Of a stretch of DNA of 64,000 nucleotides, positions 4,514 through 47,617 are shown piece after piece. Below the pieces are notes generated by a model that worked only from the letters and a program-made list of their open reading frames with translations, did not search any database and was not told where the DNA came from. Every line of letters begins with the position of its first letter. The first letter of the stretch is position 1. The translations under genes and the position numbers were made by a program. This DNA comes from Meiothermus sp. (lineage in GTDB: Bacteria > Deinococcota > Deinococci > Deinococcales > Thermaceae), in the NCBI RefSeq assembly GCF_026004115.1, contig NZ_BPIM01000001.1, forward strand, positions 2,522,501 to 2,586,500, in the 5' to 3' direction.

Positions 4514-5451
4514 ACGTACTGTTTGCCTGCGGGGTCGGGCAGCACCGGGGGGTGGCCCTCCTTGCCGGGAATCAGGCCATAGGACTCGGCCATGCGGCGC
4601 AGGCGGGCCTCGATTTCTGGGGTGGTGGGGCCCAGGGGTTCTCGCCATTCCTTTTCGCACAAACCCATCCAGGAAAGCACCGTTTTGAGGGGGATGGGGT
4701 TGGTGTCCCAGAAGATGGCCTCGTTGGCCTCGAGGCCGTGGTAGTGAAGCTCGAGGGCCTCTTTGTACCGGCCTTCCAGGGTGAGCTGGCACATCTGGGC
4801 GGTCTCTTTGGGTAGCCAGTTGGCCGTGGCGGCGATGGTGCCCACCGCGCCCACGCACATCATGGGGAAGGTCAGGGCCTCGAGGCCGCAGTACACCTTG
4901 AAGTCGCGCCCCACCCGGCGCAACAGCTCCGAAACATACTCGACATCCTTGGAGGAATGCTTGATACCCACGATGTTCTTGAAGTCGTGCTGCAAGCGGG
5001 CCACCGTGTCCACCCGGATTTCGATGCCCGCACGGCCTGGAATGTTGTAGAGCACAATGGGCATCTGCGGCACCGCCTGGGCCACCTGACCAAAAAAGCG
5101 GTAGAGCCCCTCCTGGTTGGGCTTGATGTAGTAGGGCGTGATGACCAGGGCCCCCTGGGCGCCCATCCGGTAGGCCGTCCGGGTGATCTCGAGGGTTTCG
5201 TCAAGCCGCAGGGTGCCGGTGCCGGCCAGGAGGGGTACGCGGCCCCGAATGAAGCGCAGCGCCAGCTCAATAAGGTACTTGCGCTCCTCCACGCTCAGCG
5301 TGCCGGGCTCGCCAGTGGTGCCGCCTACGCTCAGGGCATGGGAACCGGCCTCTATCTGCCGCTCGATGAGCCGCTCCAGGGCGGCTTCGTCTATGGCACC
5401 GTTCTTGAACGGTGTTACCAGGGGTACGATGCTGCCTTTGAACTCGACCAT
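4510..5451 (-). CDS. dihydrodipicolinate synthase/N-acetylneuraminate lyase family aldolase, first gene of the hpa operon
   Basis: A 313-aa class I aldolase of the DapA/NAL family. Residues 43-48 read GGTTGE, Tyr135 lies in VLYNIPGRAG and the Schiff-base Lys164 lies in VGIKHSSKD, so the active site looks intact. True DapA makes dihydrodipicolinate, but being the promoter-proximal gene of the homoprotocatechuate operon and overlapping hpaG by four bases suggests a catabolic role. The natural guess is retro-aldol cleavage of 4-hydroxy-2-oxoheptanedioate to pyruvate and succinate semialdehyde, a step enteric bacteria carry out with the unrelated class II HpaI. That role is inferred from position only. 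Confidence 0.8.
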   Translation of the reverse strand: MVEFKGSIVPLVTPFKNGAIDEAALERLIERQIEAGSHALSVGGTTGEPGTLSVEERKYLIELALRFIRGRVPLLAGTGTLRLDETLEITRTAYRMGAQGALVITPYYIKPNQEGLYRFFGQVAQAVPQMPIVLYNIPGRAGIEIRVDTVARLQHDFKNIVGIKHSSKDVEYVSELLRRVGRDFKVYCGLEALTFPMMCVGAVGTIAATANWLPKETAQMCQLTLEGRYKEALELHYHGLEANEAIFWDTNPIPLKTVLSWMGLCEKEWREPLGPTTPEIEARLRRMAESYGLIPGKEGHPPVLPDPAGKQYV

Positions 5452-5504
5452 GGTACTCCTTTGTGGCTATGTAGCCCAGGTTGCTTATTGCTCCGCAAAG
5501 ATAG

Positions 5505-5516
5505 TTAATATATTAA
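5505..5516. promoter_or_regulatory. 12-bp perfect palindrome, candidate HpaR operator over the hpa operon promoter
   Basis: TTAATATATTAA lies in the 123-nt gap between the divergent aldolase gene and hpaR. On the minus strand a TTGCAA box (5535-5540) is followed after 19 nt by TAATAT, which lies inside the palindrome, so a bound dimer would cover the catabolic promoter. On the plus strand TACAAT (5548-5553) could be the -10 of hpaR. MarR-family dimers usually bind AT-rich palindromes of this kind. The operator role is inferred. Confidence 0.5.
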
Positions 5517-5574
5517 GTAAAACTGTAGCATACTTTGCAAGCCCAGGTACAATTGTCCTTGCAAAAGACTCCCT

Positions 5575-6051
5575 ATGGCTTCCGTCCTTCCCCAAGACCC
5601 CTCCACCCGACTCCTGCGCGACCTTACCCACTCGCTGCCCATGGCCCTTCTGCGCACCCGCGAGGCGGTGGTGCAGCGCTTCAGGGTGGTGCTCTCCCGG
5701 CACGGCCTGACCGAGCAGCAGTGGCGTATTCTGCGGGCGCTCGATGGGCAAGAGGGACTGGAAATATCCCTTCTGGCCGAGCAGTGCCGCATCCTTCTGC
5801 CCAGCATGACCGGCATTTTGAAGCGCATGGAACAGCGCGGTCTCGTGCGGCGCAATGCCAACCAGGCCGATGGCCGCAGCATTCTGGTGAGTCTCACAGC
5901 CGATTCGAAGGCCCTGGTGGAGCGGATCAAGCCCGAGGTGGTGCAGGTCTACGCCGAAATCGAGCGAATCCTGGGCAAGCGCAAGCTCGAGCAGCTTTAC
6001 GCTCTATTGGAAGAGCTCGAGAGTGGGCTGAAGGGGTCTGGCCCGGGGTGA
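5575..6051 (+). CDS. hpaR: MarR-family repressor of the homoprotocatechuate operon
   Basis: A 158-aa MarR-type winged-helix protein. The N-terminal dimerisation helix (SLPMALLRTREAVVQRFR) is followed by LTEQQWRILRALD, the recognition helix region LLPSMTGILKRMEQRGLV and the wing RNANQADGRSILVSLT. Its divergent position beside the hpa genes and length match HpaR, which represses the operon until 4-hydroxyphenylacetate or a related aromatic acid is bound. The stop codon is two bases before the stop of the convergent acetyltransferase gene. Confidence 0.85.
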   Translation: MASVLPQDPSTRLLRDLTHSLPMALLRTREAVVQRFRVVLSRHGLTEQQWRILRALDGQEGLEISLLAEQCRILLPSMTGILKRMEQRGLVRRNANQADGRSILVSLTADSKALVERIKPEVVQVYAEIERILGKRKLEQLYALLEELESGLKGSGPG

Positions 6052-6053
6052 GT

Positions 6054-6626
6054 TTAGCTGGAGGTCAATTTCTCGAGCCAGGCGTCGTCGTGGGGGGGTT
6101 GGAACTCTTCGCGCAACAGACCGAACAAGTGAACATCCTCTTTAATGCCCTGCCGGGTCTCGTGCTGCCGCAAAACCCCTTCTCGCTTGAAGCCCAGTTT
6201 TTCCACCAGGCTCAGCATCCGGCTGTTGGAACTGTGGACTTCGGCGGTAATGCGTTCCAGGCCCAGTTCGCTAAAGCCATGCCCCAGCATCTGCAAACCG
6301 GCGGCAAACCCCACCCCCTGACCCCGGTGGGTCTCATCGCCAATCGCGATGCGCAGGCGGGCCCGTTTTTCCAATGGATTAAGCTCGCGCAAGTCCACAA
6401 ACCCCACCAGGTAGCCCTCGAGGTGCTCCGGGGTGGTGACCACAATTCCTTTGCGAACGAGGTCTACGGGGGGGTTGTTGAGCAGGCGCACGAACCAGTC
6501 CTGCAATTGCTCGCCAGGCAACCCCACCGGCCAGCCATTGGCCAGGCAAAAGGCTTCGTCGCGACTCCACTCGAGCACGCGGGGCAGGTCACTCATCACC
6601 AGCGGACGCAAATACACTTCCAACAT
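6054..6626 (-). CDS. GNAT-family N-acetyltransferase
   Basis: A 190-aa protein of the RimJ/RimL-like GNAT type. Acetyl-CoA-binding features are visible in ARLRIAIGDETHRGQGVGFA and, downstream, in the helix ending SNSRMLSLVEKLGFKREG. The N-terminal LRPLVMSDLPRVLEW is typical. Substrate cannot be told; close relatives acetylate ribosomal protein N-termini, antibiotics or polyamines. It is convergent with hpaR and probably monocistronic. AAGGTGAG eight nt before the ATG is a plausible ribosome site. Confidence 0.8.
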   Translation of the reverse strand: MLEVYLRPLVMSDLPRVLEWSRDEAFCLANGWPVGLPGEQLQDWFVRLLNNPPVDLVRKGIVVTTPEHLEGYLVGFVDLRELNPLEKRARLRIAIGDETHRGQGVGFAAGLQMLGHGFSELGLERITAEVHSSNSRMLSLVEKLGFKREGVLRQHETRQGIKEDVHLFGLLREEFQPPHDDAWLEKLTSS

Positions 6627-6835
6627 CTTCTACTCACCTTACATCGCCCCTTCGCAAAAAAGGGTGAAAATCGCCGTAATTCACGGGGCGATACTGGGTT
6701 TTATGTTCAGGTTACGCCCACTGCGGCTTTCCAGAAACGAGACCTCCAGCACCAGGGCACCGGCTTTGACGGGCGCCGCCGCCCGCGCTAGGCTTGAAGG
6801 GTTGTGGCGCGGCCTAAAGCAAAGACCGAACTCTC

Positions 6836-6841
6836 TATAGT
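6836..6841 (+). promoter_or_regulatory. -10 box (TATAGT) seven nt before an ATG: leaderless start of the ABC-F gene
   Basis: TATAGT is followed by exactly seven nt and the ATG at 6849. In Deinococcota this arrangement marks leaderless transcripts. No convincing -35 is seen. The box is the main reason for preferring 6849 over the in-frame GTG at 6804, which lies upstream of it. Confidence 0.5.
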
Positions 6842-6848
6842 CACCCCT

Positions 6849-8903
6849 ATGCCGGCGGCCCGCAGCGGTCCTGGGTTGGCCGGGCCTCGAGTATGGCTGC
6901 GCTTGAGCCAGGCCGAGAAAGCCTTTGGCGAGCGCATCTTGTTCCAGAAAGCCGACTTTTGGTTGGAGTCAAACGAGCGGGCGGTGCTGGTTGGGCCGAA
7001 CGGCGCCGGAAAAAGCACCCTCTTTCAGATCCTTTGTGGCCGCCAACCCCTGGACGATGGCCATCGGGTGCAGTTGCCCGGGATGCGGGTATTCTACTTG
7101 CCCCAGGATTTCCGCCCGGCATCCGGTACCGTCTACGGGCTGGCTCATGCCATTACCCCCCTGCACCGGGCCGAGCTAGAACTGGAGCGCACCCCGCCGG
7201 AACACACCGGCGAGGTGTGGCGTCAAATTCGCGAACTGTCTTTCTGGAAAGGCCGGGTAGCCCGTACCCTGGCCGACTTTGGCCTGGATGCACACAGCGA
7301 CCAGAGCACGGAACAACTTTCCGGTGGCGAGGGGGTGCGCCTGGGATTGGCCATGGCGTTTTTATCGGGCGCTGAGGTTTTGCTTCTGGACGAACCCACC
7401 ACCCACCTGGACCTGCGCATGCGGTTGCGCCTGGAGGAGATGCTGCTGGCCTACCCCGGCGCAGTGGGGCTTATTTCCCACGACCGGGCGCTTTTGAACC
7501 GGGTCGCCACCACGGTCTACCACCTGGAAGCTGGGCGTTTGTTCAGGGTAGCAGGAGGGTATGCCACCTACCTGGGAGAGCGTGAGCGCATCCGGCGAAC
7601 CCTGGAGAAGGCTCGATTTGAAGCAGAAAAAGAACGCGAACGTTTGCTGCAGGCCATCCCAGACCGCAGACGACCTGGAACGGATCGGCGCAAGCGGGAG
7701 AAGGCCCTTTTACAAACCCGGGCCGAGCGGATTAAAGTGCCCGATCCGCCTCCCCCCGAGCGTCGCTGGAGCCTGGAGCTGGCCGCCGAGGGAACCCCAA
7801 GGCTGGTGCTGGAGGCCCGGGGACTAAAAAAATCGTATCCCCAGGGGGAAGAACAGGCTCGGACGATCATCCGCGAAGCCACCCTGCGCATTTTTCGGGG
7901 TGACCGGATCGCCCTGGTAGGGACCAACGGGGCTGGCAAGACCACCTTGCTGCGCTTGTTGCTTTCCAGAGAATTGCCCGACGAAGGTGAACGAATGCTG
8001 GGCTATGGGGTGAGCGCAGCCTACCTTGATCAGCTGTACCACGGTCTGGAACCCGACCGGCCCCTCTTTGCACAGTTCGCCTCGAGGTTTGGCGAGGCGC
8101 GGGCAGCGGCGCTTTTGGGCCGCATGGGCTTTCGCCCCCCGCACTGGCACGACGCCCCCCGTAGTTTTTCCGGTGGCGAGCGGGCCCGGGCGGGGCTGGC
8201 CTTGCTGGGCGCGCTGCGGGCAGGCTTGCTGGTGATGGACGAGCCTACCAACCATCTCGAGCTCGAGCTACTGGAAGCCCTGGAAAAGGCCCTGGTTGAC
8301 TACCCCGGTACGTTGCTCTTTGTCTCGCACGACCGGGCGTTGGTCAGAAAGGTGGCCACCCGGTTCTGGGGGCTGGAGGAGGGTGTGCTGGTGGAATACC
8401 CCAGCTATGCCGAGGCCGAGGCGGCCATGCTGGGCAAGCCAGCCCTGCGGCTAAACCCCTATGGAGAAACCGCGCCAGAAGCAGAGCCACCCCCCGAAGA
8501 GCGCGACCTCGAGCAAGAACGCATGACCTTTCTGGCAGAACTCGACGAACCAGGCCTGACGCAGCGGAGCCGCCAGCGGCTGCGCGCCGATCTGCTGGCG
8601 CTGGAAGACGCTTTGTACCGCCAGTACGCCCTCGAGTTTTTTCGTCCTTACCCCTACCGCTACCGGGTGCAGCAGGAGGGACTGGAGGTGTTTGCGGAGG
8701 AAGAGCTGGGCTTCTGGCGCTTTTGGAGCCGCGAGGAGGCATGCGGCGGCGAGTTTTCTGGCGGCGTGCTGAGCCTGGAAGGAAAGCCTGGCCCAAGGCT
8801 ACTGCGGGCCGTCCTGCAGATGGCTTTTGAACTCCTGAGTGCTAGGGTCGTGCGGTATGGCAAGCAGAGCTTTGGCCAAAAGGGCTACCTGACAAGAGAT
8901 TGA
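6849..8903 (+). CDS. ABC-F family ATPase, 3' end altered by IS insertion
   Basis: About 684 aa with two ABC ATPase domains and no membrane segments, as in ABC-F proteins (Uup/EttA type) that act on the ribosome. Domain 1 has Walker A GPNGAGKST, signature LSGGEGVRLG and Walker B LLLDEPTTHLD; domain 2 has GTNGAGKTT, FSGGERARAG and LVMDEPTNHLE. A charged C-terminal region of about 140 aa follows. An IS entered at the last codons. The frame now ends LTRD inside the IS left end, but joining across the 6-bp target duplication restores LKQFTGHSHSD and a stop. The loss of ten residues outside the ATPase domains is probably tolerated. An alternative start is GTG 6804 (699 aa). Confidence 0.88.
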   Translation: MPAARSGPGLAGPRVWLRLSQAEKAFGERILFQKADFWLESNERAVLVGPNGAGKSTLFQILCGRQPLDDGHRVQLPGMRVFYLPQDFRPASGTVYGLAHAITPLHRAELELERTPPEHTGEVWRQIRELSFWKGRVARTLADFGLDAHSDQSTEQLSGGEGVRLGLAMAFLSGAEVLLLDEPTTHLDLRMRLRLEEMLLAYPGAVGLISHDRALLNRVATTVYHLEAGRLFRVAGGYATYLGERERIRRTLEKARFEAEKERERLLQAIPDRRRPGTDRRKREKALLQTRAERIKVPDPPPPERRWSLELAAEGTPRLVLEARGLKKSYPQGEEQARTIIREATLRIFRGDRIALVGTNGAGKTTLLRLLLSRELPDEGERMLGYGVSAAYLDQLYHGLEPDRPLFAQFASRFGEARAAALLGRMGFRPPHWHDAPRSFSGGERARAGLALLGALRAGLLVMDEPTNHLELELLEALEKALVDYPGTLLFVSHDRALVRKVATRFWGLEEGVLVEYPSYAEAEAAMLGKPALRLNPYGETAPEAEPPPEERDLEQERMTFLAELDEPGLTQRSRQRLRADLLALEDALYRQYALEFFRPYPYRYRVQQEGLEVFAEEELGFWRFWSREEACGGEFSGGVLSLEGKPGPRLLRAVLQMAFELLSARVVRYGKQSFGQKGYLTRD

Positions 8904-10103
8904 CCCACCCCTGAAAAGGTCGTCATAAAGAAGAACCGTGCCGAGAGTCCTTGCAAAGGATCCGGTCAGCACGGTACTTCTGTACGATGTTTGAAGACGT
9001 ACAGTGTAGTTTATCGCGTTTGCAACGATGGGAACAAGGCTATGTGTTGGGCTTGCTGCAATCAGCCCATAAAACCCCCAGCGCGATAGCAGCCAGTGGA
9101 ACGATAGGGTATAGCCCCAGCTATAGCTGTCGCCTGCTACGACAAGAAGCCAAACCCCACCAGTCCAGTCGAGAGCGACGGTTGGAAGCAGCCCCCAAGG
9201 GGATGTACCTGGGGGTGGACTTGGTTCCCGTAGCCCATCAAGGATGTTGGATCGAGGGCGTGGATCGGGTGTACTCCAGCAGTGATAAAGCTCCGGTGTG
9301 GGGACATAACCTGCTGTCATGTGGGCTGGTTGGATATGGGAAACTTCCCTACCCATTGAGTCTGGAGGGTTTCCCCACCAAGCCCATGAGTTCGGAGGTA
9401 TACCCGTACCGAACCCCTGGTGAGGCGATGTGGCAGGTAGTCGAGGCCATCCGCAAGAATGGTAATGGTTATAGCCTCGCAGGCGTGGTGTTCGACAACC
9501 AGTTTGCGGGTAAGGCTTACCTCGCCAAGCTCTACCAGCACAACATACCTTTCGTAGCTCGGGCCAGACTGAATCAAAAGGTCGAACATGCAGGAAAGCA
9601 ACGATCTATCCGAGAACTGGGTGAGCACTATCCACCCGGTAAAGCCCGCTATTACAAGCGTTTTGGCTGGTATGTCAAACGCATCAAGATCACCTTGGCC
9701 GATGTGGGTCGACTGGATATGCTGCTGATTTGGCTACCCCAGCCAGCAGGTTTCAAGCTGATGGCCCTCTTCTCCACCCTGGATGCAGGCATTCAAGAAG
9801 TCCTTGCCGCCTGGAAAGCTCGTTGGGATCTGGAGCGGGTGCATCGCCTGCTCAAACAGAACCTGGGTTTATCCAAATGCCTCTCTCGTTCCTATGCTGC
9901 TCAACTCAAACATGCTGACCTTGCCATCGAGGCCCTACACCTTATTCGACAGCAAAAACAACTACATCCAGATCTTTCTTGGCGCACAGCACAGCACAAT
10001 GCCGCAAAAACCCTCAAATCCCAGCTACTGACCGTACTCCCTGCCCTTTCAGCCTGACTTTATGCCCTTTTTTTGATACTTTTCACTACAGTTCAATCTC
10101 TTG
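8893..10103 (+). mobile_element. Insertion sequence, copy 1 (1211 bp, DDE transposase)
   Basis: The element is bounded by 11-bp perfect inverted repeats, CAAGAGATTGA at 8893-8903 and TCAATCTCTTG at 10093-10103. It is flanked by the 6-bp direct repeat ACCTGA (8887-8892 and 10104-10109). The second copy at 32259-33469 has the same length and ends, which fixes the boundaries. The two copies differ by a single base as far as I can see by eye (cgatgg versus caatgg early in the transposase gene), so at least one jumped recently. Between the left end and the gene a stem ACCGTGC/GCACGGT encloses the upstream TTG start, a layout that could limit translation of read-in transcripts. Confidence 0.93.
8987..10057 (+). 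CDS. IS4-superfamily DDE transposase, copy 1
   Basis: A 356-aa transposase. Candidate catalytic residues are the Asp in MYLGVDLVP, the Asp in GVVFDNQFAGK and the Glu in WDLERVHRLLKQNLGL; the last segment resembles the conserved Y/W-R-E-K-type C-terminal motif of the IS4/IS701 group. I took the ATG at 8987; a TTG at 8951 is in frame but lies inside the hairpin region. A 6-bp target duplication does not fit the 4 bp usual for IS701, so the exact family is open. The frame is intact, and the protein differs from copy 2 only at one Arg/Gln. Confidence 0.88.
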   Translation: MFEDVQCSLSRLQRWEQGYVLGLLQSAHKTPSAIAASGTIGYSPSYSCRLLRQEAKPHQSSRERRLEAAPKGMYLGVDLVPVAHQGCWIEGVDRVYSSSDKAPVWGHNLLSCGLVGYGKLPYPLSLEGFPTKPMSSEVYPYRTPGEAMWQVVEAIRKNGNGYSLAGVVFDNQFAGKAYLAKLYQHNIPFVARARLNQKVEHAGKQRSIRELGEHYPPGKARYYKRFGWYVKRIKITLADVGRLDMLLIWLPQPAGFKLMALFSTLDAGIQEVLAAWKARWDLERVHRLLKQNLGLSKCLSRSYAAQLKHADLAIEALHLIRQQKQLHPDLSWRTAQHNAAKTLKSQLLTVLPALSA

Positions 10104-10248
10104 ACCTGAAGCAGTTTACGGGGCACAGCCATTCAGACTGAATCGAATCTCAACCTGCTCGAGCTAAACGCACAGAAAAATGCCTTCGGAAAAAAGCTGC
10201 GGCGGGTATAACTGCCACCCTGACCCCAAAGCCCTGACCCGCTGGCCC

Positions 10249-10689
10249 TCACTGCGCCTCGCGTACCTGCCGCTTGATGCGCATGAGCACGGCTTGCAAG
10301 CCACGCAGTCGCAAGGGTGTAATGATTTCCTCGAGCCGGGCCAGACTGTAAAAGTCCTCCGGTACCCTGAGAATGGCCTCGGGGCTTTCGCCCTCCAGGC
10401 CTTCGGCCAGTAGCCCGGCAAAGGCCCGCACCGTGGGGGCTTCCTTGGGGGCGTCGAAGTAGAGGTGAACCTTGCCCTCCTGGAGTTCGGCATGCACGAA
10501 GAAAGGCGTGGTGCACTCGTGGACTTGCTCGAGCTTGCCTTGCATGCCCTCGGGCAAGGGGGGCATTTTCTTGGCAAACTCTAAAAGCATCTCGGTCTTG
10601 ATGACCTTGGGGGCACTTCCCAGCATCTGCACCACGCTTTGGAGTTTGGGGGGCAACTGGGCCAGTCGTTCGTCGGCAGTCATAGACAT
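10249..10689 (-). CDS. sufE: SufE family cysteine desulfuration protein
   Basis: A 146-aa SufE-like protein. Cys59 in VHECTTPFFVHAEL corresponds to the sulfur-accepting cysteine of SufE, and the region APTVRAFAGLLAEGLEGESP is a family hallmark. SufE takes persulfide sulfur from the desulfurase SufS for Fe-S cluster assembly in the cytoplasm. No suf genes are adjacent; the next gene is a small protein of unknown function read in the same direction. An in-frame ATG at 10683 is an equally possible start. Confidence 0.88.
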   Translation of the reverse strand: MSMTADERLAQLPPKLQSVVQMLGSAPKVIKTEMLLEFAKKMPPLPEGMQGKLEQVHECTTPFFVHAELQEGKVHLYFDAPKEAPTVRAFAGLLAEGLEGESPEAILRVPEDFYSLARLEEIITPLRLRGLQAVLMRIKRQVREAQ

Positions 10690-25847: not shown

Positions 25848-27676
25848 GTTGCACTCGGGCGAAAGCTCGAGTGAGGATTGAAACTGTTGTCCTGCACAGA
25901 AACTAAATTACCTTCCCGTGTTGCACTCGGGCGAAAGCTCGAGTGAGGATTGAAACCTGAAGGGCGATTTTGCGGGCGCTTGGGCCGAGGTGTTGCACTC
26001 GGGCGAAAGCTCGAGTGAGGATTGAAACTTTGGGGTCTAAAAACCCTGCATCCATTCGCGCAAGTTGCACTCGGGCGAAAGCTCGAGTGAGGATTGAAAC
26101 TGCAAGCTCATCATCCCTTGGCTTCGCTCCCTGGCGGGTTGCACTCGGGCGAAAGCTCGAGTGAGGATTGAAACCACACATCAAGTCGAAATACCTTTTG
26201 GCTCAGGCACGTTGCACTCGGGCGAAAGCTCGAGTGAGGATTGAAACTTCAAAACCAGTAGGCTTATATGCTATGCCGCTATGGTTGCACTCGGGCGAAA
26301 GCTCGAGTGAGGATTGAAACGTGATGTAAACATTATTTATGATGCCTTATCTTTGGTTGCACTCGGGCGAAAGCTCGAGTGAGGATTGAAACTACATACT
26401 TCACCTTGAATCCTTCCCACTCTGTGGGTTGCACTCGGGCGAAAGCTCGAGTGAGGATTGAAACGCCAGCAGGGATTGGTGTGGAGTGACCGGGAGGCGT
26501 TGCACTCGGGCGAAAGCTCGAGTGAGGATTGAAACTGCTAGACTGGACGTGAGGGCCATGTCTAAGCTCATGGTTGCACTCGGGCGAAAGCTCGAGTGAG
26601 GATTGAAACATTATCGTGCACTGAAACGATATTGTTTTCCCTCCGTTGCACTCGGGCGAAAGCTCGAGTGAGGATTGAAACCTCGAGCACCCGCAGCGGC
26701 ACGCTGTTCATGGTTTGTTGCACTCGGGCGAAAGCTCGAGTGAGGATTGAAACTGGGCGAGGAGGGCTATTTTGACGAGGCTGTGCTGCGTTGCACTCGG
26801 GCGAAAGCTCGAGTGAGGATTGAAACACCAAGCTGAGCACCCGCCCTGGTTCTGCGGGTTGGTTGCACTCGGGCGAAAGCTCGAGTGAGGATTGAAACGA
26901 TCATATGCCCTCGAAGAGCAAGGCGGAAACGTTGCACTCGGGCGAAAGCTCGAGTGAGGATTGAAACATATATTTTACAACGCACCCTTCCCACTCTGTG
27001 GGAGTTGCACTCGGGCGAAAGCTCGAGTGAGGATTGAAACGGCCAGCGCATGTCAGCTCTCATCTCTCGGCAGTTGCACTCGGGCGAAAGCTCGAGTGAG
27101 GATTGAAACGCAGAAAAGGCAACTTGGGCAAGCTACCAGGCATACGTTGCACTCGGGCGAAAGCTCGAGTGAGGATTGAAACGTGGGCCATCGCGAGGTA
27201 GCCCACGAACTCTGGGTGTTGCACTCGGGCGAAAGCTCGAGTGAGGATTGAAACAGCCTGCCCCAGGGCGCTCAGGTCGATTGGTACATTGGTTGCACTC
27301 GGGCGAAAGCTCGAGTGAGGATTGAAACTTGAATACCACCATACCCTTTGAGGTCGACGTCACGTTGCACTCGGGCGAAAGCTCGAGTGAGGATTGAAAC
27401 GCACAGGGGCTCATCTCCAGGCCCCCGCACGCACTCGTTGCACTCGGGCGAAAGCTCGAGTGAGGATTGAAACGTGCTGATGCCGGTTTAGCTCTCGCCC
27501 GTGCCCCGGGTTGCACTCGGGCGAAAGCTCGAGTGAGGATTGAAACGATGGAGTCGCCTCCAACAGCGATGATGAGGGAGGTTGCACTCGGGCGAAAGCT
27601 CGAGTGAGGATTGAAACTTAGAACTACTACATGGTAGCCAGGTTCCACTGGCGTTGCACTCGGGCGAAAGCTCGAG
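25848..27676 (+). CRISPR. CRISPR array: 26 repeats of 37 bp, 25 spacers
   Basis: Repeats begin GTTGCACTCGGGCG and end GAGGATTGAAAC. By eye the first 25 copies (starts 25848, 25920, 25992, 26064 ... 27581) are identical; the last (27653) keeps only its first 24 bases, marking the trailer end. Spacers are 32-37 bp, mostly 35-36. The repeat folds into a nine-base stem (CACTCGGGC with GCTCGAGTG, one G-U) closed by a GAAA tetraloop. The ATTGAAAC end is typical of type I-A/B and type III repeats, giving the usual 8-nt crRNA handle. No cas gene is in the window. Confidence 0.98.
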
Positions 27677-32258: not shown

Positions 32259-33469
32259 CAAGAGATTGACCCACCCCTGAAAAGGTCGTCATAAAGAAGA
32301 ACCGTGCCGAGAGTCCTTGCAAAGGATCCGGTCAGCACGGTACTTCTGTACGATGTTTGAAGACGTACAGTGTAGTTTATCGCGTTTGCAACAATGGGAA
32401 CAAGGCTATGTGTTGGGCTTGCTGCAATCAGCCCATAAAACCCCCAGCGCGATAGCAGCCAGTGGAACGATAGGGTATAGCCCCAGCTATAGCTGTCGCC
32501 TGCTACGACAAGAAGCCAAACCCCACCAGTCCAGTCGAGAGCGACGGTTGGAAGCAGCCCCCAAGGGGATGTACCTGGGGGTGGACTTGGTTCCCGTAGC
32601 CCATCAAGGATGTTGGATCGAGGGCGTGGATCGGGTGTACTCCAGCAGTGATAAAGCTCCGGTGTGGGGACATAACCTGCTGTCATGTGGGCTGGTTGGA
32701 TATGGGAAACTTCCCTACCCATTGAGTCTGGAGGGTTTCCCCACCAAGCCCATGAGTTCGGAGGTATACCCGTACCGAACCCCTGGTGAGGCGATGTGGC
32801 AGGTAGTCGAGGCCATCCGCAAGAATGGTAATGGTTATAGCCTCGCAGGCGTGGTGTTCGACAACCAGTTTGCGGGTAAGGCTTACCTCGCCAAGCTCTA
32901 CCAGCACAACATACCTTTCGTAGCTCGGGCCAGACTGAATCAAAAGGTCGAACATGCAGGAAAGCAACGATCTATCCGAGAACTGGGTGAGCACTATCCA
33001 CCCGGTAAAGCCCGCTATTACAAGCGTTTTGGCTGGTATGTCAAACGCATCAAGATCACCTTGGCCGATGTGGGTCGACTGGATATGCTGCTGATTTGGC
33101 TACCCCAGCCAGCAGGTTTCAAGCTGATGGCCCTCTTCTCCACCCTGGATGCAGGCATTCAAGAAGTCCTTGCCGCCTGGAAAGCTCGTTGGGATCTGGA
33201 GCGGGTGCATCGCCTGCTCAAACAGAACCTGGGTTTATCCAAATGCCTCTCTCGTTCCTATGCTGCTCAACTCAAACATGCTGACCTTGCCATCGAGGCC
33301 CTACACCTTATTCGACAGCAAAAACAACTACATCCAGATCTTTCTTGGCGCACAGCACAGCACAATGCCGCAAAAACCCTCAAATCCCAGCTACTGACCG
33401 TACTCCCTGCCCTTTCAGCCTGACTTTATGCCCTTTTTTTGATACTTTTCACTACAGTTCAATCTCTTG
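32259..33469 (+). mobile_element. Insertion sequence, copy 2 (1211 bp)
   Basis: Same length, ends and orientation as the copy at 8893-10103, with 11-bp inverted repeats (CAAGAGATTGA / TCAATCTCTTG). It is flanked by the 6-bp target duplication TTTCAC (32253-32258 and 33470-33475). It split the phage remnant between the terminator and the capsid-protease fragment. Intact duplications at both copies show each arose by transposition, not by recombination between copies. Confidence 0.93.
32353..33423 (+). CDS. IS4-superfamily DDE transposase, copy 2
   Basis: A 356-aa intact transposase identical to copy 1 except for Gln in place of Arg (LSRLQQWEQG) near residue 14. The same candidate catalytic Asp, Asp and Glu residues are present. 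The start is the ATG at 32353, with the same hairpin upstream. Confidence 0.88.
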   Translation: MFEDVQCSLSRLQQWEQGYVLGLLQSAHKTPSAIAASGTIGYSPSYSCRLLRQEAKPHQSSRERRLEAAPKGMYLGVDLVPVAHQGCWIEGVDRVYSSSDKAPVWGHNLLSCGLVGYGKLPYPLSLEGFPTKPMSSEVYPYRTPGEAMWQVVEAIRKNGNGYSLAGVVFDNQFAGKAYLAKLYQHNIPFVARARLNQKVEHAGKQRSIRELGEHYPPGKARYYKRFGWYVKRIKITLADVGRLDMLLIWLPQPAGFKLMALFSTLDAGIQEVLAAWKARWDLERVHRLLKQNLGLSKCLSRSYAAQLKHADLAIEALHLIRQQKQLHPDLSWRTAQHNAAKTLKSQLLTVLPALSA

Positions 33470-39195: not shown

Positions 39196-39873
39196 TCAGC
39201 GCTGGCTGCGCTTGGTCTGAAGGGCACGCTCGAGCCGCTCCAGCCAGGCCGCCATGCCGGTACCACGCTTCCCCGAGACCTCCAGGATCTCGATGCCCGG
39301 ACGCATCTCGCGCAGGTTCCGGTACATGGCCTCGCGGTCGAACTCCACCGCTTCGGCCAGGTCAATTTTAGTAATCAGAGCGATGTCTGCGGTGTTAATA
39401 AGGGTGGGGTACTTGAGGGGTTTGTCCTCGCCTTCGGTGGTGGAGAACAGCGCTACCCGCAGGTCTTCACCCAGATCCCAGCTCGAGGGGCAGACCAGGT
39501 TGCCCACATTCTCGATAAAGAGCAGGTCAATCTGGCGCAAGTCCCAGTCCTGCAGGTGTTCCTCGATCATGCGGGCCTCGAGGTGACACAGGGTCTTGGT
39601 CTCGATCTGCCGCACCGGCGCACCGCTCTCGGCCAGCCGCCGGGCATCGTTGTCAGTGGCCAGGTCGCCGACCAGGGCCGCTACCCGGTAGCGGGGGCTC
39701 AGCTCCAGCAGGGTCTGGCGCAGCAGGGTGGTTTTGCCCGAGCCGGGGCTGCTGACCAGGTTTAGAACTAGCGACCCGGTCTGGGCAAAGCGCTCACGCA
39801 ATGAGCGGGCTAGCACGTCGTTGTCCTTGAGCACGTTGGCCCGCACCTCGAGGATTCGGGGGGATTTGGTCAT
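39196..39873 (-). CDS. hypB: hydrogenase maturation GTPase HypB
   Basis: A 225-aa SIMIBI GTPase. The P-loop is SSPGSGKTTL (42-49), with VGDLATDNDA, ENVGNLVCPSSWDLGE (metal-binding Cys at the switch) and TKIDLAEAV. HypB drives nickel insertion into the hydrogenase large subunit together with HypA. It lacks both the N-terminal CxxCGC nickel motif and a His-rich stretch, so extra nickel binding must come from elsewhere, perhaps SlyD. It overlaps hypA by four bases. Confidence 0.95.
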   Translation of the reverse strand: MTKSPRILEVRANVLKDNDVLARSLRERFAQTGSLVLNLVSSPGSGKTTLLRQTLLELSPRYRVAALVGDLATDNDARRLAESGAPVRQIETKTLCHLEARMIEEHLQDWDLRQIDLLFIENVGNLVCPSSWDLGEDLRVALFSTTEGEDKPLKYPTLINTADIALITKIDLAEAVEFDREAMYRNLREMRPGIEILEVSGKRGTGMAAWLERLERALQTKRSQR

Positions 39874-40220
39874 GGTTGCTCCTTCAACTCCAGGGCTACT
39901 ATCTCCAGCTCCTTACCGCGCCGGATATCGCTGGAGAGCTCCTGACACTTCGGGCAGCGCAGGCTCTGGATACCCGCCAGTTCAAACTCGGCCTGACAGT
40001 TGGGGCAGTAAATGGTAAGGGGCACCTCCTCAATCAAGAGCCGGCTGCCCTCCAGGGGCGTGCCCTGGCTGGCGACTTCGTAGCCAAATAAGAGCGAATC
40101 CACCACCACCCCCGCGAGCGCTCCCAACCGCAGGTACACGGCCTCTACCTCTACCCCGCGTGCCGCTGCTTCCTCCTGGGCAACCGCAACGATGTTGGTG
40201 GCAATGGAGAGCTCGTGCAT
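39870..40220 (-). CDS. hypA: hydrogenase maturation nickel metallochaperone HypA
   Basis: A 116-aa HypA starting MHELSIATNIV, whose His2 and Glu3 belong to the nickel site. The zinc site is YCPNCQAE and LRCPKCQEL. The start is the ATG at 40220; a GTG nine bases upstream would block the N-terminal nickel site. It is divergent from hypC across 138 nt. Confidence 0.95.
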   Translation of the reverse strand: MHELSIATNIVAVAQEEAAARGVEVEAVYLRLGALAGVVVDSLLFGYEVASQGTPLEGSRLLIEEVPLTIYCPNCQAEFELAGIQSLRCPKCQELSSDIRRGKELEIVALELKEQP

Positions 40221-40316
40221 GGGGTGCACCTGGAGAATGTCTAAACAATGTCCAGTACCGGAAACCCTCTTAAGTCTGACCGAAATGCATGGGTACAGGT
40301 GTCCTGGTCTAGCTCA

Positions 40317-40322
40317 TATAAT
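40317..40322 (+). promoter_or_regulatory. -10 box (TATAAT) of the hypC operon
   Basis: A perfect TATAAT 36 nt before the hypC ATG, with an AAAGGAG ribosome site in between. No good -35 at 17 nt, so an activator is possible. Confidence 0.5.
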
Positions 40323-40358
40323 CTAGGTAGCGTCGCCTATTTTTGAAAGGAGTCCAGA

Positions 40359-40649
40359 ATGTGCCTTGCCATTCCGGGTCAGATCGTACAGTTCGATAGC
40401 GCCGCCAAGCATATGGCGACCGTTGATGTCTCGGGGGTCAAGCGGCAGGTCAACTTGGACTTGCTGCGCGGCACACCCCTCGAGGTAGGCGACTGGGTGC
40501 TGATTCACGTGGGCTTTGCCATGAGCAAGATCAGCGAGGCCCAGGCCCAAGAGCAGCTTCAGCTCCTGACCATGCTGGGCGAGGCCGAGGAAGCCATGGA
40601 AGAACTCGAGGGCTACCAGTTCGCCGAGGAGCGAAGTTCCCATGCTTGA
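40359..40649 (+). CDS. hypC: hydrogenase maturation chaperone HypC
   Basis: A 96-aa HypC/HybG protein beginning MCLAIPGQIVQF, with the essential Cys2 that binds the Fe(CN)2CO unit, and the OB-like core VSGVKRQVNLDL. It carries the iron centre between HypD and the hydrogenase large subunit. The C-terminus is acidic (EEAMEELEGY). It overlaps the next gene by eight bases. Confidence 0.95.
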   Translation: MCLAIPGQIVQFDSAAKHMATVDVSGVKRQVNLDLLRGTPLEVGDWVLIHVGFAMSKISEAQAQEQLQLLTMLGEAEEAMEELEGYQFAEERSSHA

Positions 40650-40886
40650 CCTGGAATTCTACGGCAGCTGCACCCTTGATGCCGACGGCTGCACTACCTG
40701 CGGCGACGTGGCAGTGCCGGTTCGGGTGGTCAAAATCGAGGGCTGCGATGCGCTGGTGGAAGATCGCCTGGGCCATCAGGCCAGGGTTGCGGTGGATTTT
40801 TTTACCGACCTTAAGGTAGGTGACGCGCTCCTGGTGCACATGGGCGTGGCCATCGCAAAACTTTCCGACCCAGGAAGGGAGCCGCA

Positions 40887-40890
<4 letters not shown>
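40642..40890 (+). CDS. second HypC/HupF-like protein lacking the N-terminal Met-Cys
   Basis: An 82-aa protein with the HypC fold pattern (VPVRVVKIEGCDALVEDRLG, then KVGDALLVHMGVAIAKL) but starting MLDLEFYGSCTLDADGCTTC instead of MC. It has Cys at about 10, 17 and 20. It cannot use the usual N-terminal Cys in the HypC way; the CTTCGD cluster might replace it. It sits between hypC and hypD with overlaps on both sides, so it is certainly part of the maturation operon. Exact role unknown. Confidence 0.8.
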
Positions 40891-42002
<1,112 letters not shown>

Positions 42003-42009
42003 TACGGCC

Positions 42010-43041
42010 ATGACCAAATCCCCCGTCCCTATCCGCTTCAAGGACGCCCAGATCGAACTGGCCCACGGCTCGGGCGGCAAGGCCAGCCGCCGCCTGGTGG
42101 AGGGACTAATTGCCCCTATCCTGGGCAACCCTGCCCTGGACGATGCGGCTCTGCTGAGCCTGGGTTGCTCGTTGTTGGCCTTCACCGCCGACAGCTTTGT
42201 GGTCAAACCGCTGCGGTTCCCCGGCGGCTCGATTGGGGAGCTGGCGGTTAACGGTACGGTAAACGACCTGGCGGTCTCGGGGGCCAGGCCCCTTGCGCTG
42301 CTGTCCACGCTGATTCTGGAAGCAGGTCTCTCGGCTCAGGTTCTGCAAGCCGAGCTCGAAGCGATGCAACAAGCAGCCCGGCAGGCCGGGGTGCAGGTGG
42401 TGGGGGGCGACACCAAGGTGGTGGAGCACGGCAAGGCCGATGGGCTTTTCATCAGCACCAGCGGGATCGGGCTGGTGGACGCTCGGGTTCGGCTGGCGGC
42501 CGCCTCGGTACGCCCCGGCGACCAGGTGCTGCTCTCGGGTCCTATTGGCGACCACGGCATCACCATTCTGTTGGCCCGTGGCGAGCTCGACCTCGAGGCA
42601 AGTCTGAAGTCCGACACCCGCTCGGTATGGCCGTTGGTGGAGGCGCTGATCGAGGCTGCCGCACCCGGCTTGCGCTGGATGCGCGACCCCACCCGGGGCG
42701 GGGTGGCAACCGCACTGAACGAGCTGGCCAGGGAGGCCCAGCTTGCCCTCAGGCTCTACGAAGAGCACATTCCCATCCGGGACGAGGTACGGGGGGCCTG
42801 CGAGATTCTGGGGCTCGACCCCCTGCACATCGCCAACGAAGGTCAGTTCATCGCTATAGTGGGCCCCGAGTGTTCTGAGGCTGCGCTGGAGGCGGTGCAA
42901 CGCGTAGCAGGCGGCCAGGAAGCCAGGCTAATTGGGGAGGTGGTGGAAAACCCCGCTGGCGTTGTGTACACCGTCAGCAGCTATGGCTCGAGCCGGGTGG
43001 TGGATATGCTGGTAGGCGATCCCTTGCCGCGTATTTGCTGA
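42010..43041 (+). CDS. hypE: hydrogenase maturation protein HypE (carbamoyl dehydratase)
   Basis: A 343-aa PurM-like ATPase ending PRIC, the C-terminal Cys that is carbamoylated by HypF and dehydrated to thiocyanate. Other motifs are IELAHGSGGKASRRLVEG, GGSIGELAVNGTVNDLAVSG and MRDPTRGGVATALNELA. It starts seven nt after hypD. Confidence 0.96.
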   Translation: MTKSPVPIRFKDAQIELAHGSGGKASRRLVEGLIAPILGNPALDDAALLSLGCSLLAFTADSFVVKPLRFPGGSIGELAVNGTVNDLAVSGARPLALLSTLILEAGLSAQVLQAELEAMQQAARQAGVQVVGGDTKVVEHGKADGLFISTSGIGLVDARVRLAAASVRPGDQVLLSGPIGDHGITILLARGELDLEASLKSDTRSVWPLVEALIEAAAPGLRWMRDPTRGGVATALNELAREAQLALRLYEEHIPIRDEVRGACEILGLDPLHIANEGQFIAIVGPECSEAALEAVQRVAGGQEARLIGEVVENPAGVVYTVSSYGSSRVVDMLVGDPLPRIC

Positions 43042-44510: not shown

Positions 44511-45431
44511 TCAGCTTTCTGGGTCTGCAAACAACGGTGTCGAGAGATACTTCATCCCCGAGTCGCAGGCGATGGTCAGTACGCGTTTGCCCGGCCCCAG
44601 TTCGCGGGCTACCTGCAGGGCGGCCCAGATCATCCCGCAGGCACTCATCCCCACGAAAAGCCCTTCCTCTCGAGCCAGTGGCTTGGCCAGTGGGAAGGCG
44701 TCTTCTTCCAGCACCTGAATCACCCGATCCAGCATCTTCACATCCAGGTTGGGCGGGATGAAACCGGGCCCCATGCCCTGAAACTGATGCGAGCCCATCT
44801 GGCCACCTGAAAGCACATTGCTGCGGCGCGGTTCGCAGGCGATAATCTGCACCTTGGGCAGCCGCTCCCGCAGGTACTTCCCGACGCCCATAATCGTCCC
44901 GCCGGTGCCCGAACCGTACACAAAGGCATCCAGCCGGCCCTGCATCTGCTCGAAAATCTCGGGGCCGGTGGTCTCGTAGTGGGCCCTGGGGTTGGCGGGG
45001 TTGTCGAACTGGTTGGGCATAAAAGCCCCCCGCTCGGCCACGATGCGCTGGGCCTCCTCGATGGCGGCCAGCATCCGGCGGCTGGGGTCGGTGAGGATTA
45101 GCTCGGCCCCGTAGGCCCTGAGGATGCGCTTGCGCTCCTCCGACATCTGGGCCGGCATGGTCAGAATCAGTTTGTAGCCCCGGCTGGCCGCTACCATGGC
45201 CAGGCCAATGCCGGTGTTGCCGCTGGTGGGTTCCACAATCAGTTGCCCCGAGCCTGGCTTCAGGATGCCGCGCTCCTCGGCATCCTTGATCAGGTACCAG
45301 GCCGTGCGGTCCTTGATGGAGCCGCCGGGGTTATCGCCTTCCAGCTTGACCCAGACTTCGGCCATGCCCGGCTCCACCACGCGCTTGAGCCTAACCACAG
45401 GGGTCTTGCCAATGACCTCTTCCACAAACAT
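44511..45431 (-). CDS. cysK: cysteine synthase (O-acetylserine sulfhydrylase family)
   Basis: About 306 aa, a PLP fold II enzyme. The PLP Lys lies in GGSIKDRTAW, the substrate loop is VEPTSGNTGIGLA and the phosphate-binding loop is YGSGTGGTIMGVG. It joins O-acetylserine and sulfide to cysteine; CysK and CysM cannot be told apart here. Of two in-frame ATGs I prefer 45431 (MFVEEVIGKTPVVRL), because TATGCT lies six nt upstream (leaderless) and the family starts there; 45449 would add six residues. Confidence 0.92.
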   Translation of the reverse strand: MFVEEVIGKTPVVRLKRVVEPGMAEVWVKLEGDNPGGSIKDRTAWYLIKDAEERGILKPGSGQLIVEPTSGNTGIGLAMVAASRGYKLILTMPAQMSEERKRILRAYGAELILTDPSRRMLAAIEEAQRIVAERGAFMPNQFDNPANPRAHYETTGPEIFEQMQGRLDAFVYGSGTGGTIMGVGKYLRERLPKVQIIACEPRRSNVLSGGQMGSHQFQGMGPGFIPPNLDVKMLDRVIQVLEEDAFPLAKPLAREEGLFVGMSACGMIWAALQVARELGPGKRVLTIACDSGMKYLSTPLFADPES

Positions 45432-45500
45432 GGCTACAGCATAGGACATGGACTGGATTTCGTATCCTTATCGGTTTACGATTATTTAATCTGAATGCTT

Positions 45501-45558: not shown

Positions 45559-46029
45559 ATGACCGCAAGCAAAGGCCAGGTTGTGACCATTCGCTATACG
45601 CTGCACGTTGAAGATGAGCTCATCGACCAGGGTGAGCTGGAGTATCTGCACGGGCACCGCAATATTGTGGTGGGGCTGGAAGAAGCGCTGGAAGGCAAGG
45701 CGGCTGGTGAACGAGTCATGGTCGCGGTGTCTCCGGAAAAGGGCTATGGCCTCTACGATCCCGAAGGGGTTCAGGTCGTCGAGCGCGAGGCTTTTCCCGC
45801 CGACGCCGAGCTGGTGGAAGGGGCTATGTTTTATGCAGAAGATCCACAAGGCAACCCCATGCCCTTCACGGTATTGAGCGTGGACGGCAAGGATGTGACC
45901 ATCGACTTCAACCATGCCCTGGCGGGCGAGACGCTGAACTTTGATGTCACCCTTGTGGCCATCCGGCCGGCAACAGCTGAAGAACTCGAGCACGGCCATG
46001 CCCACGGGCTGCATGGGCACAGCCACTAA
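45559..46029 (+). CDS. slyD: FKBP-type peptidyl-prolyl isomerase SlyD
   Basis: A 156-aa SlyD: FKBP half-domain (VVTIRYTLHVEDELIDQ), inserted chaperone flap (about 65-120) and return to FKBP with FNHALAGETLNFDVTLV. The C-terminus is a short His-rich tail (HGHAHGLHGHSH) suited to nickel binding. In E. coli SlyD assists HypB in hydrogenase nickel loading. Here the gene lies about 1.1 kb from the end of the hyp operon, and the local HypB lacks its own nickel motifs, so the same job is plausible. Confidence 0.93.
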   Translation: MTASKGQVVTIRYTLHVEDELIDQGELEYLHGHRNIVVGLEEALEGKAAGERVMVAVSPEKGYGLYDPEGVQVVEREAFPADAELVEGAMFYAEDPQGNPMPFTVLSVDGKDVTIDFNHALAGETLNFDVTLVAIRPATAEELEHGHAHGLHGHSH

Positions 46030-46108
46030 AAAGGGCAGACAGCTGACGGCAGGGGAGATTCTTCCCCTGCTTTCGATTTGCTTGCCTCAAGGGTGGTGGA
46101 GCGCCTGC

Positions 46109-46114
46109 TAGAAT
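46109..46114 (+). promoter_or_regulatory. -10 box (TAGAAT) six nt before the R2lox start
   Basis: TAGAAT, then six nt, then ATG 46121: a typical leaderless promoter arrangement. Confidence 0.55.
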
Positions 46115-46120
46115 TCAGCT

Positions 46121-46960
46121 ATGCGGCAATTAGCCACCAGCCAGCCTGCTCGGCTCGAGGACGATTTTGTTATCAGCCTGTACCACAAATCCAAGCGGAA
46201 CTTCTGGAATCCGCAAGAACTTGATTTTAACCAGGATCGCCACGACTGGGCCTCTTTGAGCGAAGCCCAACAAAAAGTCCTGCTGCATCTTTCGGCGCTT
46301 TTTGTCGGTGGCGAAGAGGCGGTCACGCTGGACCTGGCCCCCTATTTGCTCCATGTCAGCCAGCAGAGCCGCTACGACGACGCCCTCTATGTGGCGACCT
46401 GGACCTTTGAGGAGGCCAAGCATGCCGAGTTCTTTGACCGCTTTCACCGCGAGGTGGTGGGGGGCGCACCTGAACTGGCACTGTTCCACGTCGAATCCTG
46501 GCAGCAAATCTTTTACCAGGCACTGCCGCAAGCCATGAACGCCCTCCAGACCGACCCCTCTCCTACAGCAGAGGTTCGGGCGCTCGGCACCTACAACCTG
46601 ATTGTGGAAGGGGTGCTGGCCGAGACGGGCTATCGCGCTTACAAAGAGGTACTGGAAAAGGAAAACCTGATGCCGGGTTTGCGCAAGGGACTGGGCCATG
46701 TGCAGGCCGACGAGGGCCGCCACATTGCGTTTGGTCTGCATAACCTGAGCAAGCTATTGCATCGCCATGCGCAAACTAAAGAGGTGCTGGAAGATGTGCT
46801 GGCCGAGCTGATTCCGGCTGCGGTTGGAACTGTACAGGAGGTTTTTGCTGCCCACCAACCCATGCCCTTCGACATTTCCGAACAGGATTTTGTGGACTAC
46901 GCGCTGCGGCAGATTCAGCACCGTACCGAGGTTTTAGAGCGGCCACTCAGTTCGGCCTGA
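46121..46960 (+). CDS. R2-like ligand-binding oxidase (Mn/Fe, R2lox)
   Basis: A 279-aa ferritin-like four-helix protein. The metal ligands Glu65, Glu98, His101, Glu163, Glu198 and His201 and the cross-link pair Val68-Tyr158 are each exactly four positions below the residues described for Geobacillus kaustophilus R2lox (69, 102, 105, 167, 202, 205; Val72-Tyr162). The Val-Tyr ether pair separates R2lox from ribonucleotide reductase R2, which needs a radical Tyr and a partner R1; none is nearby. R2lox assembles a Mn/Fe cofactor and binds a long-chain fatty acid. Physiological substrate unknown. Confidence 0.9.
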   Translation: MRQLATSQPARLEDDFVISLYHKSKRNFWNPQELDFNQDRHDWASLSEAQQKVLLHLSALFVGGEEAVTLDLAPYLLHVSQQSRYDDALYVATWTFEEAKHAEFFDRFHREVVGGAPELALFHVESWQQIFYQALPQAMNALQTDPSPTAEVRALGTYNLIVEGVLAETGYRAYKEVLEKENLMPGLRKGLGHVQADEGRHIAFGLHNLSKLLHRHAQTKEVLEDVLAELIPAAVGTVQEVFAAHQPMPFDISEQDFVDYALRQIQHRTEVLERPLSSA

Positions 46961-47083: not shown

Positions 47084-47617
47084 TCAAGCAAAGAGTCCTT
47101 GCAACAACGGCTGGCCTTTGGGAACTTTGAAAGCCAGGTATTCGTCTTGTAAGCGGAATAAAACCAGCAGATGTTGGGGCGTTTGCAAACGCATAAACAA
47201 GGGCAGGACATAGCGGGCCTCGCCCCGTTCGATACGGGTGTGGCCCAGGGTGTAGGCCATAAAGAAATCCTGATCACTTTGCATCAGGCTGGCGGTATAG
47301 AAAATCATCAAATCGGCTTCTTCCTTATCGGCTCGAGCCAGGGCTTCCCAGACCAGTTCCTGAGCCTGGTGGGCGGTCAGGTATTCGCCCTGCACCAGGC
47401 CCAACCGTCCATAAAAGGCAGCAGGAAACCGCTTAAACTCGTAGTAAAACCCTTCTGGACTATGCCACCAGCGAACAATTTCGTTCTCGCCGGGATTGCC
47501 CTGGGCGCTCTCGAGGGCATACTCGCGGGCCAGCGCCAGGGGCTTCAGGTCGGGAAACTCGCCGGACTCCATACCCTCGAGCAGTTGCCGCTGGGGGTCT
47601 ATTTCAAATCCTGTCAT
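47084..47617 (-). CDS. protein of unknown function coupled to menG
   Basis: A 177-aa soluble protein, rich in aromatic residues (FYYEFKRFPAAFYGRLGLVQ), with no signal peptide, membrane segment or metal motif that I can recognise. It starts inside the last codons of the methyltransferase gene (four-base overlap), so the two are translated together. The coupling hints at a role near quinone metabolism, but nothing in the sequence supports a specific function. Confidence 0.65.
   Translation of the reverse strand: MTGFEIDPQRQLLEGMESGEFPDLKPLALAREYALESAQGNPGENEIVRWWHSPEGFYYEFKRFPAAFYGRLGLVQGEYLTAHQAQELVWEALARADKEEADLMIFYTASLMQSDQDFFMAYTLGHTRIERGEARYVLPLFMRLQTPQHLLVLFRLQDEYLAFKVPKGQPLLQGLFA

Follow-up and report, generated by a model that had tools for sequence, protein, structure and literature searches.

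The window analysed here, a 64,000-nucleotide stretch of Meiothermus sp. DNA, carries on its forward strand a gene for a 279-residue protein of the R2-like ligand-binding oxidase (R2lox) type (46121-46960, +, ATG to TGA). The upstream neighbour on the same strand is slyD, encoding an FKBP-type peptidyl-prolyl isomerase (45559-46029, +), and beyond it lies the divergently oriented cysK, encoding cysteine synthase (44511-45449, -). On the other side, a gene for a conserved 177-residue protein that matches no Pfam or NCBIfam model (47084-47617, -) converges on R2lox. A terminator-like hairpin of slyD (46048-46071, +) falls between slyD and R2lox. The terminator scan that marks it is weak alone, since its 2 sites are near the 1.4 found in shuffled sequence; the hairpin stretch has a fold z-score of -2.04, and similar hairpins are visible by eye 3' of slyD in six of eight printed spacers from relatives that lack R2lox.

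The predicted promoter of R2lox is an extended -10 element, TGC-TAGAAT (46106-46114, +), which ends 6 nt before the ATG and would give a leaderless transcript. In all six Meiothermus and Calidithermus carriers of the gene, one of which starts R2lox with GTG, the hexamer (TAGAAT or TACAAT) ends at the same distance of 6 nt from the start codon, and it is preceded by TGn in five of them. A promoter scan upstream of R2lox found no -35/-10 pair. Because many genes of the phylum have a -10 motif adjoining the open reading frame (about 30% of ORFs according to PMC12340547), the leaderless start of R2lox appears ordinary. The initial annotation had described the gene as monocistronic and leaderless, and both descriptions seem correct: the hairpin after slyD, the gene's own predicted promoter and the convergent orientation of the next gene point to a single-gene unit, while the constant position of the hexamer argues for the start. 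A slyD-R2lox operon was considered and ruled out by the hairpin and the separate promoter, leaving slyD as its own unit.

The only Pfam match of the protein is PF00268 (Ribonuc_red_sm), but NCBIfam is more specific and classifies it as an R2-like ligand-binding oxidase. The curated cut-off is passed for one of the five NCBIfam R2lox models (NF006200, 229.9 bits against 194); the other four fall below theirs, including the best-scoring model, NF006202 (268 against 315). The best solved relative in a phmmer search is R2loxI of Geobacillus kaustophilus (GK2771; PDB 4hr0; E 1e-56), with 94 of 223 aligned residues (42%) identical and a similar fold (TM about 0.9). The R2lox of Mycobacterium tuberculosis (3ee4, 4ac8; E 3e-50) shares family, fold and metal ligands with the window protein, but differs more in sequence (33-35% identity by structural alignment). 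Structure prediction and comparison with R2lox, a check proposed in the initial annotation, gave an AlphaFold2 model with a mean pLDDT of 92.6 (42 sequences in the alignment). The first 34 of the 50 rows shown in a Foldseek search of the PDB with this model are R2lox structures (TM by query 0.80-0.93), followed by class Ic R2 proteins; among the matches listed, the R2lox fold is closer to the model than that of any ribonucleotide reductase (RNR) R2 subunit.

The diagnostic residues agree with this assignment. Glu65, Val68, Glu98, His101, Tyr158, Glu163, Glu198 and His201 pair with residues 83, 86, 116, 119, 176, 181, 216 and 219 of the 4hr0 construct. Subtraction of a 14-residue tag, whose length was deduced from the construct numbering, converts these to E69, V72, E102, H105, Y162, E167, E202 and H205, which are the published G. 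kaustophilus (Gk) ligand and cross-link residues (PMC6060897). The window protein thus lies four below Gk numbering at all eight positions, as the initial annotation had claimed, and the sole alignment gap precedes them all. All six metal ligands, four Glu and two His, are in place on the + strand: Glu65 (codon at 46313-46315), Glu98 and His101 (codons 98-101, 46412-46423), Glu163 (codons 163-171, 46607-46633), and Glu198 and His201 (codons 198-201, 46712-46723). The predicted ether cross-link partners are Val68 (46322-46324, +) and Tyr158 (46592-46594, +). Codons 163-171 also specify two further R2lox marks, Ala167 and Tyr171. The first corresponds to Gk A171, a position where R2lox has Ala and every RNR R2 group has Phe (PMC6399176), and the second to Gk Y175, the channel Tyr of R2lox (PMC4118035).

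A residue census was taken over 106 aligned rows, made up of 22 Deinococcota loci, 80 named loci from a species collection, three plasmid genes and the Gk protein, with five genomes represented twice. The eight residues are identical throughout, save for one E98D, and the Val68-Tyr158 pair is invariant (106 of 106). Conservation in columns 98-105 and about 160-168 is biased, because these overlap the two search patterns by which 80 of the 106 rows were retrieved; the columns of Glu65, Val68, Tyr158, Glu198 and His201 lie outside the patterns and are unbiased by them. Judged by sequence, diagnostic residues and modelled fold together, the window gene is a genuine R2lox, as first annotated, and an ordinary member of a known family.

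The PF00268 match could be taken to mean that the protein is instead a divergent RNR R2 subunit, and the initial annotation had named two grounds for such doubt: an adjacent R1 gene, or a tyrosine at the radical position of class Ia R2. The radical tyrosine of class I R2 presumably lies four residues after the ligand His (His+4), which we take to be Tyr122 in E. coli R2. The corresponding residue here is Phe105 (46433-46435, +), and Phe occupies this column, which lies within a search pattern, in all 106 rows. The host's own NrdF, which presumably shares the superfamily fold given its PF00268 match, differs in having Tyr at His+4 (motif EHMHAKSY), a comparison that rests on motif reading, as alignments of R2lox with this NrdF are poor. 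Phe at His+4 also occurs in class Ic R2, so that Phe105 by itself leaves class Ic possible. The gene content of the host speaks to the same point. Neither the window, nor the five carrier neighbourhoods with which it was compared, nor the surroundings of the gene in its own genome showed an R1 gene beside R2lox. A second PF00268 protein (C1:111578-112405) does adjoin an R1 gene, and NCBIfam names this pair, at about 112 kb on C1, class Ib NrdF and NrdE; R2lox (C1:2568621, 2.569 Mb) is 2.45 Mb along the contig from them. A third R1-like ORF, larger at 1001 aa, is found at C1:3.185 Mb. With a separate nrdE/nrdF pair in the genome, no R1 nearby, Phe105, Ala where RNR R2 proteins have Phe, and R2lox scores far above R2 scores, an RNR role is so improbable that it was ruled out. 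R2lox proteins are indeed often misannotated in this way, as the initial annotation remarked: several haloarchaeal plasmid copies carry a ribonucleotide reductase label. Separately, two Deinococcota R2 proteins (L026, L027), in which the first ligand reads by eye as Glu and the His+4 residue as Phe, are perhaps class Ic-like.

The initial annotation called these proteins rare, which the distribution does not bear out; R2lox is patchy rather than rare. A match was found in 27 of 111 Deinococcota genomes. Two of these (G001, G009; 29% identity) are class I R2 proteins, one classed by NCBIfam scan and the other judged by sequence, leaving 25 genomes with R2lox: 5 of 18 Meiothermus, 1 of 2 Calidithermus, 15 of 27 Thermus, and 4 in another family of the order. 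R2lox is broken in three Thermus genomes (G046, G049, G068); the broken genes (L023, L024, L025, L028, L029) suggest continuing loss. In a species collection, 382 stretches encode a relative, the best 80 of which served as the named loci; among these 80, the nearest is from Meiothermus hypogaeus (98%). Plasmid records with a match number 34. Viral carriage was considered and rejected: of 10 viral stretches that matched a search pattern, none encodes a relative.

Within Meiothermus and Calidithermus the gene has a fixed address. The order cysK-slyD-R2lox is kept in all six carriers, which span both genera. At 10 of 13 loci lacking R2lox, slyD and the homologue of the 47084-47617 gene are adjacent (0-409 nt apart), with no R2lox remnant between them; at the other three the homologue was out of reach, and one further genome (G042) has no slyD match. 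In the same 10 loci, the 47084-47617 (-) homologue sits between slyD and ubiE. The window R2lox is 72% identical to the Calidithermus copy, and the neighbouring slyD, ubiE and cysK products are 64-80% identical. Recent mobile gain is therefore unsupported, given the shared locus in two genera and a divergence within the range of the neighbours. On a tree of cysK and slyD from 19 genomes, at least three changes in the presence of R2lox are needed, and losses and transfers both fit. Old presence followed by repeated clean loss fits best, and the window gene is best explained as an R2lox that Meiothermus has inherited vertically on its chromosome.

The R2lox genes of Thermus belong to the same organism family, and their products fall in a 42-50% identity range, but they lie at a different chromosomal place. 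In a first protein tree, a long haloarchaeal branch fell inside the Thermaceae group, and the tree was rebuilt without it. The free version of the rebuilt tree did not group Thermus with Meiothermus; the version constrained to do so scored better (p-AU 0.876). These sequences thus do not reject the view that all Thermaceae copies descend from one ancestor.

Several other features of the window deserve mention. Hydrogenase maturation genes occupy 39196-43041, upstream of cysK-slyD-R2lox; they include hypD (40887-42002, by NCBIfam) and what we take to be hypE and hypA/hypB. A functional tie between these genes and R2lox was considered and dismissed as a chance neighbourhood, because three of the five carrier regions compared (L116, L117, L038) have cysK-slyD-R2lox and no hypD/hypE match. 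Positions 25848-27676 hold a CRISPR-like array, with about 26 copies of GTTGCACTCGGGCGAAAGCTCGAGTGAGGATTGAAAC at a spacing of about 72 nt. Two 368-aa ORFs (8951-10057 and 32317-33423) are nearly alike over their first 45 residues and are probably two copies of one insertion-sequence transposase.

Relatives of the window gene keep quite different company. In one Thermus genome (G055, locus L184), four genes lie head to tail with gaps of 2-4 nt: SCP2 (6665-7087), a zinc alcohol dehydrogenase (ADH; 7090-8133), R2lox (8138-9040) and an aldehyde dehydrogenase (ALDH; 9044-10522). An acyl-CoA ligase lies upstream on the opposite strand, and the whole cluster spans 3849-10522. The SCP2-ADH-R2lox-ALDH arrangement occurs in 4 of the 10 Thermus regions examined (L184, L191, L192, L193), although three of the four genomes were picked as near kin of G055 and R2lox is broken in one of them (G068). 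It recurs in two of the 80 named loci, both from Bacillota (L090, L109). Two other Thermus R2lox genes that were compared have different neighbours (an alpha/beta hydrolase and a methyltransferase). Most Thermus genomes also have a second SCP2-ADH pair without R2lox (L209 5471-6894), about 50% identical to the operon pair.

Related sets of genes are found further afield. All three Rhodococcus plasmids examined group ADH, an FAD-dependent reductase, a ferredoxin and R2lox, and two of the three also carry ALDH and SCP2; the reductase and ferredoxin would be a ready electron supply. Beside the copy on a Mycobacterium plasmid lie ADH, CoA ligase and one SCP2-like gene. Unlike the M. tuberculosis R2lox, actinobacterial relatives on plasmids are thus found with ADH, SCP2 and CoA ligase. 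Both G. kaustophilus copies are described as lying near ADH, ALDH and CoA ligase genes (PMC10867098); the plasmid copy was found here with ADH, ALDH and CoA ligase but no SCP2. The three haloarchaeal plasmid copies examined lack such a set. In a group of Anaerolineae, R2lox adjoins a CMAS-like methyltransferase at 11 loci and an EryCIII-like glycosyltransferase at 9. These and the other Anaerolineae neighbours (NUDIX, CorA, SMP-30) were considered as a pathway; they form no clear one and are kept only within related genomes.

The Meiothermus locus has none of these partners. GK2771 is clustered with ADH, ALDH and beta-oxidation genes (PMC10867098), whereas the Meiothermus gene is solitary, flanked by slyD and a gene unrelated to it, behind its predicted leaderless promoter. 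SCP2, ADH and ALDH gave no match in the window or in two other Meiothermus regions, and at the thresholds used neither SCP2 nor the operon-type ADH was found in any of the family's 23 genomes outside Thermus. The best ALDHs of the host genome are distant relatives of the operon enzyme (44-50% identical). An ADH/ALDH cluster, taken as a criterion for an alkane monooxygenase, is thus present in relatives and absent at the window locus.

The association with SCP2 was followed across 100 loci by means of a profile derived from the initial hits, and 14 loci have a match: 7 of the 80 named loci, 4 of the 10 Thermus regions, 3 of 4 actinobacterial plasmids, none of 3 haloarchaeal plasmids, and none of the window and two Meiothermus regions. 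The same seven named loci were found in a first pass with the Thermus SCP2 protein alone. All seven matches lie less than 2 kb from R2lox, with none in the remaining 744 kb; such placement has a chance of about 1.6e-4 if random, a figure that depends on a profile which these hits had themselves seeded and on genomes that are related to one another. The other 73 named loci, including all those from Chloroflexota, have no SCP2. In Natronococcus sp. AD-5, the plasmid NZ_CP132295.1 carries matches to SCP2 and R2lox about 2.3 kb apart (415907-419221).

In four of the seven loci, from three phyla, SCP2 and R2lox are encoded in one open frame. These fusions come from a Calditrichota MAG (L049 7509-8864), two Rhodothermota MAGs (L084 7524-8798; L110 7548-8825) and the genome of a Rhodohalobacter halophilus strain, Balneolota (L100 7506-8828), and in each both Pfam domains, SCP2 and Ribonuc_red_sm, score above their cut-offs. 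Their R2lox domains have all the diagnostic residues and are 41-45% identical to the window protein, but they differ from it in bearing an N-terminal SCP2 domain and a linker. The model of the L049 fusion, of modest confidence (pLDDT 71.4, 4 sequences), shows two domains joined by a disordered linker (137-171). In a Foldseek search, one domain of the model matches R2lox and the second matches the Thermus SCP2 2cx7 (E 2.6e-8, TM by target 0.88), which is also a relative of the SCP2 in the Thermus operon (E 4e-39). A link between R2lox and SCP2 or sterol carriers was not found described in the open-licence literature, and the same is true of the repeated ADH/ALDH operons and of R2lox in Meiothermus.

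The chemistry of characterized R2lox proteins provides a starting point for interpreting these associations. Mn/Fe assembly, O2 activation, formation of the cross-link and a bound fatty acid have been published (PMC6060897, PMC6399176), with the fatty acid bound by both GkR2lox and MtR2lox (PMC6060897). The statement in the initial annotation that R2lox has no known physiological role is partly out of date, because an alkane monooxygenase (hydroxylation) role has been proposed for GkR2loxI (PMC10867098). The evidence for that role is modest, since the alkane activity was seen in crude lysate and was only slightly lower, by 11-21 points, in a double ligand mutant (PMC10867098). The gene context in Thermus and Alicyclobacillaceae and the fusions, which are independent of that report, also point to a route from hydrophobic substrate to alcohol, aldehyde and acid. 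The lipid-carrier fusions suggest that the R2lox family oxidises greasy molecules, and fusions and operons together point to a lipid or hydrocarbon, brought by a carrier, as what is oxidised. Because the Meiothermus R2lox stands alone, we infer its role from these relatives.

The balance tips somewhat toward a Mn/Fe or Fe/Fe R2lox that carries out a two-electron oxidation, most likely a hydroxylation, of a long hydrophobic chain. The window protein would self-assemble its Mn/Fe (or Fe/Fe) site, the metal site would activate O2, and Val68 and Tyr158 would become joined by an ether bond. The enzyme would then oxidise an alkane, fatty acid or other lipid, with the chain held in a channel lined by Ala167 and Tyr171, and the alcohol product would pass to general dehydrogenases. 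Relatives appear to package the same step with SCP2, ADH and ALDH, and Rhodococcus with its FAD reductase and ferredoxin; the solitary Meiothermus oxidase would depend on general partners. Given that partners are absent at its locus and SCP2 is absent from 73 of the 80 named loci, the solitary R2lox may do something narrower.

That solitude is also what one might expect if the useful chemistry were the single-turnover reaction with O2 and the accompanying cross-link, serving in O2 or metal buffering or in stress sensing with no catalytic turnover on a small molecule. The lack of a redox partner, SCP2, ADH and ALDH would then be natural, as would the dispensability of a gene that is absent from 13 of 18 Meiothermus genomes and has been repeatedly lost or broken. 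This seems unlikely, though, because Ala167 and Tyr171, the marks of the channel, have been retained, Thermus relatives from the sister clade lie in an oxidation operon, and the lipid-carrier fusion seen in four relatives implies that the substrate is mobile. Another two-electron oxidation of a fatty-acyl chain or lipid, for example desaturation, could operate in lipid modification rather than catabolism. Desaturase activity has been proposed for R2lox (PMC4118035), and the methyltransferase and glycosyltransferase genes beside the Anaerolineae R2lox would suit such a role, but they are conserved only among related genomes, and the presence of ADH and ALDH beside R2lox in Thermus, Bacillota and Rhodococcus is better explained by an alcohol product. 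This alternative is likewise considered improbable. A further reading, put forward tentatively and with some doubt, is that R2lox belongs to a lipid-carrier-fed oxidation system: SCP2, fused through a flexible linker in some relatives, would pass a long-chain lipid or a hydrocarbon to the Mn/Fe site, ADH and ALDH would process the product, and the Meiothermus gene would be a stripped-down descendant without dedicated partners.

On its own, the window gene is one further example of the family. With one fixed locus and the gene missing in many relatives, natural Meiothermus strains with and without R2lox can be compared. If the lipid-carrier-fed scheme is true, the cargo of the SCP2 domain in the fusion proteins could reveal which class of substrate R2lox uses, a question that dates from 2009. 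The SCP2 fusions and the ADH/ALDH operons are a direct handle on the R2lox substrate and are worth a specialist's time.
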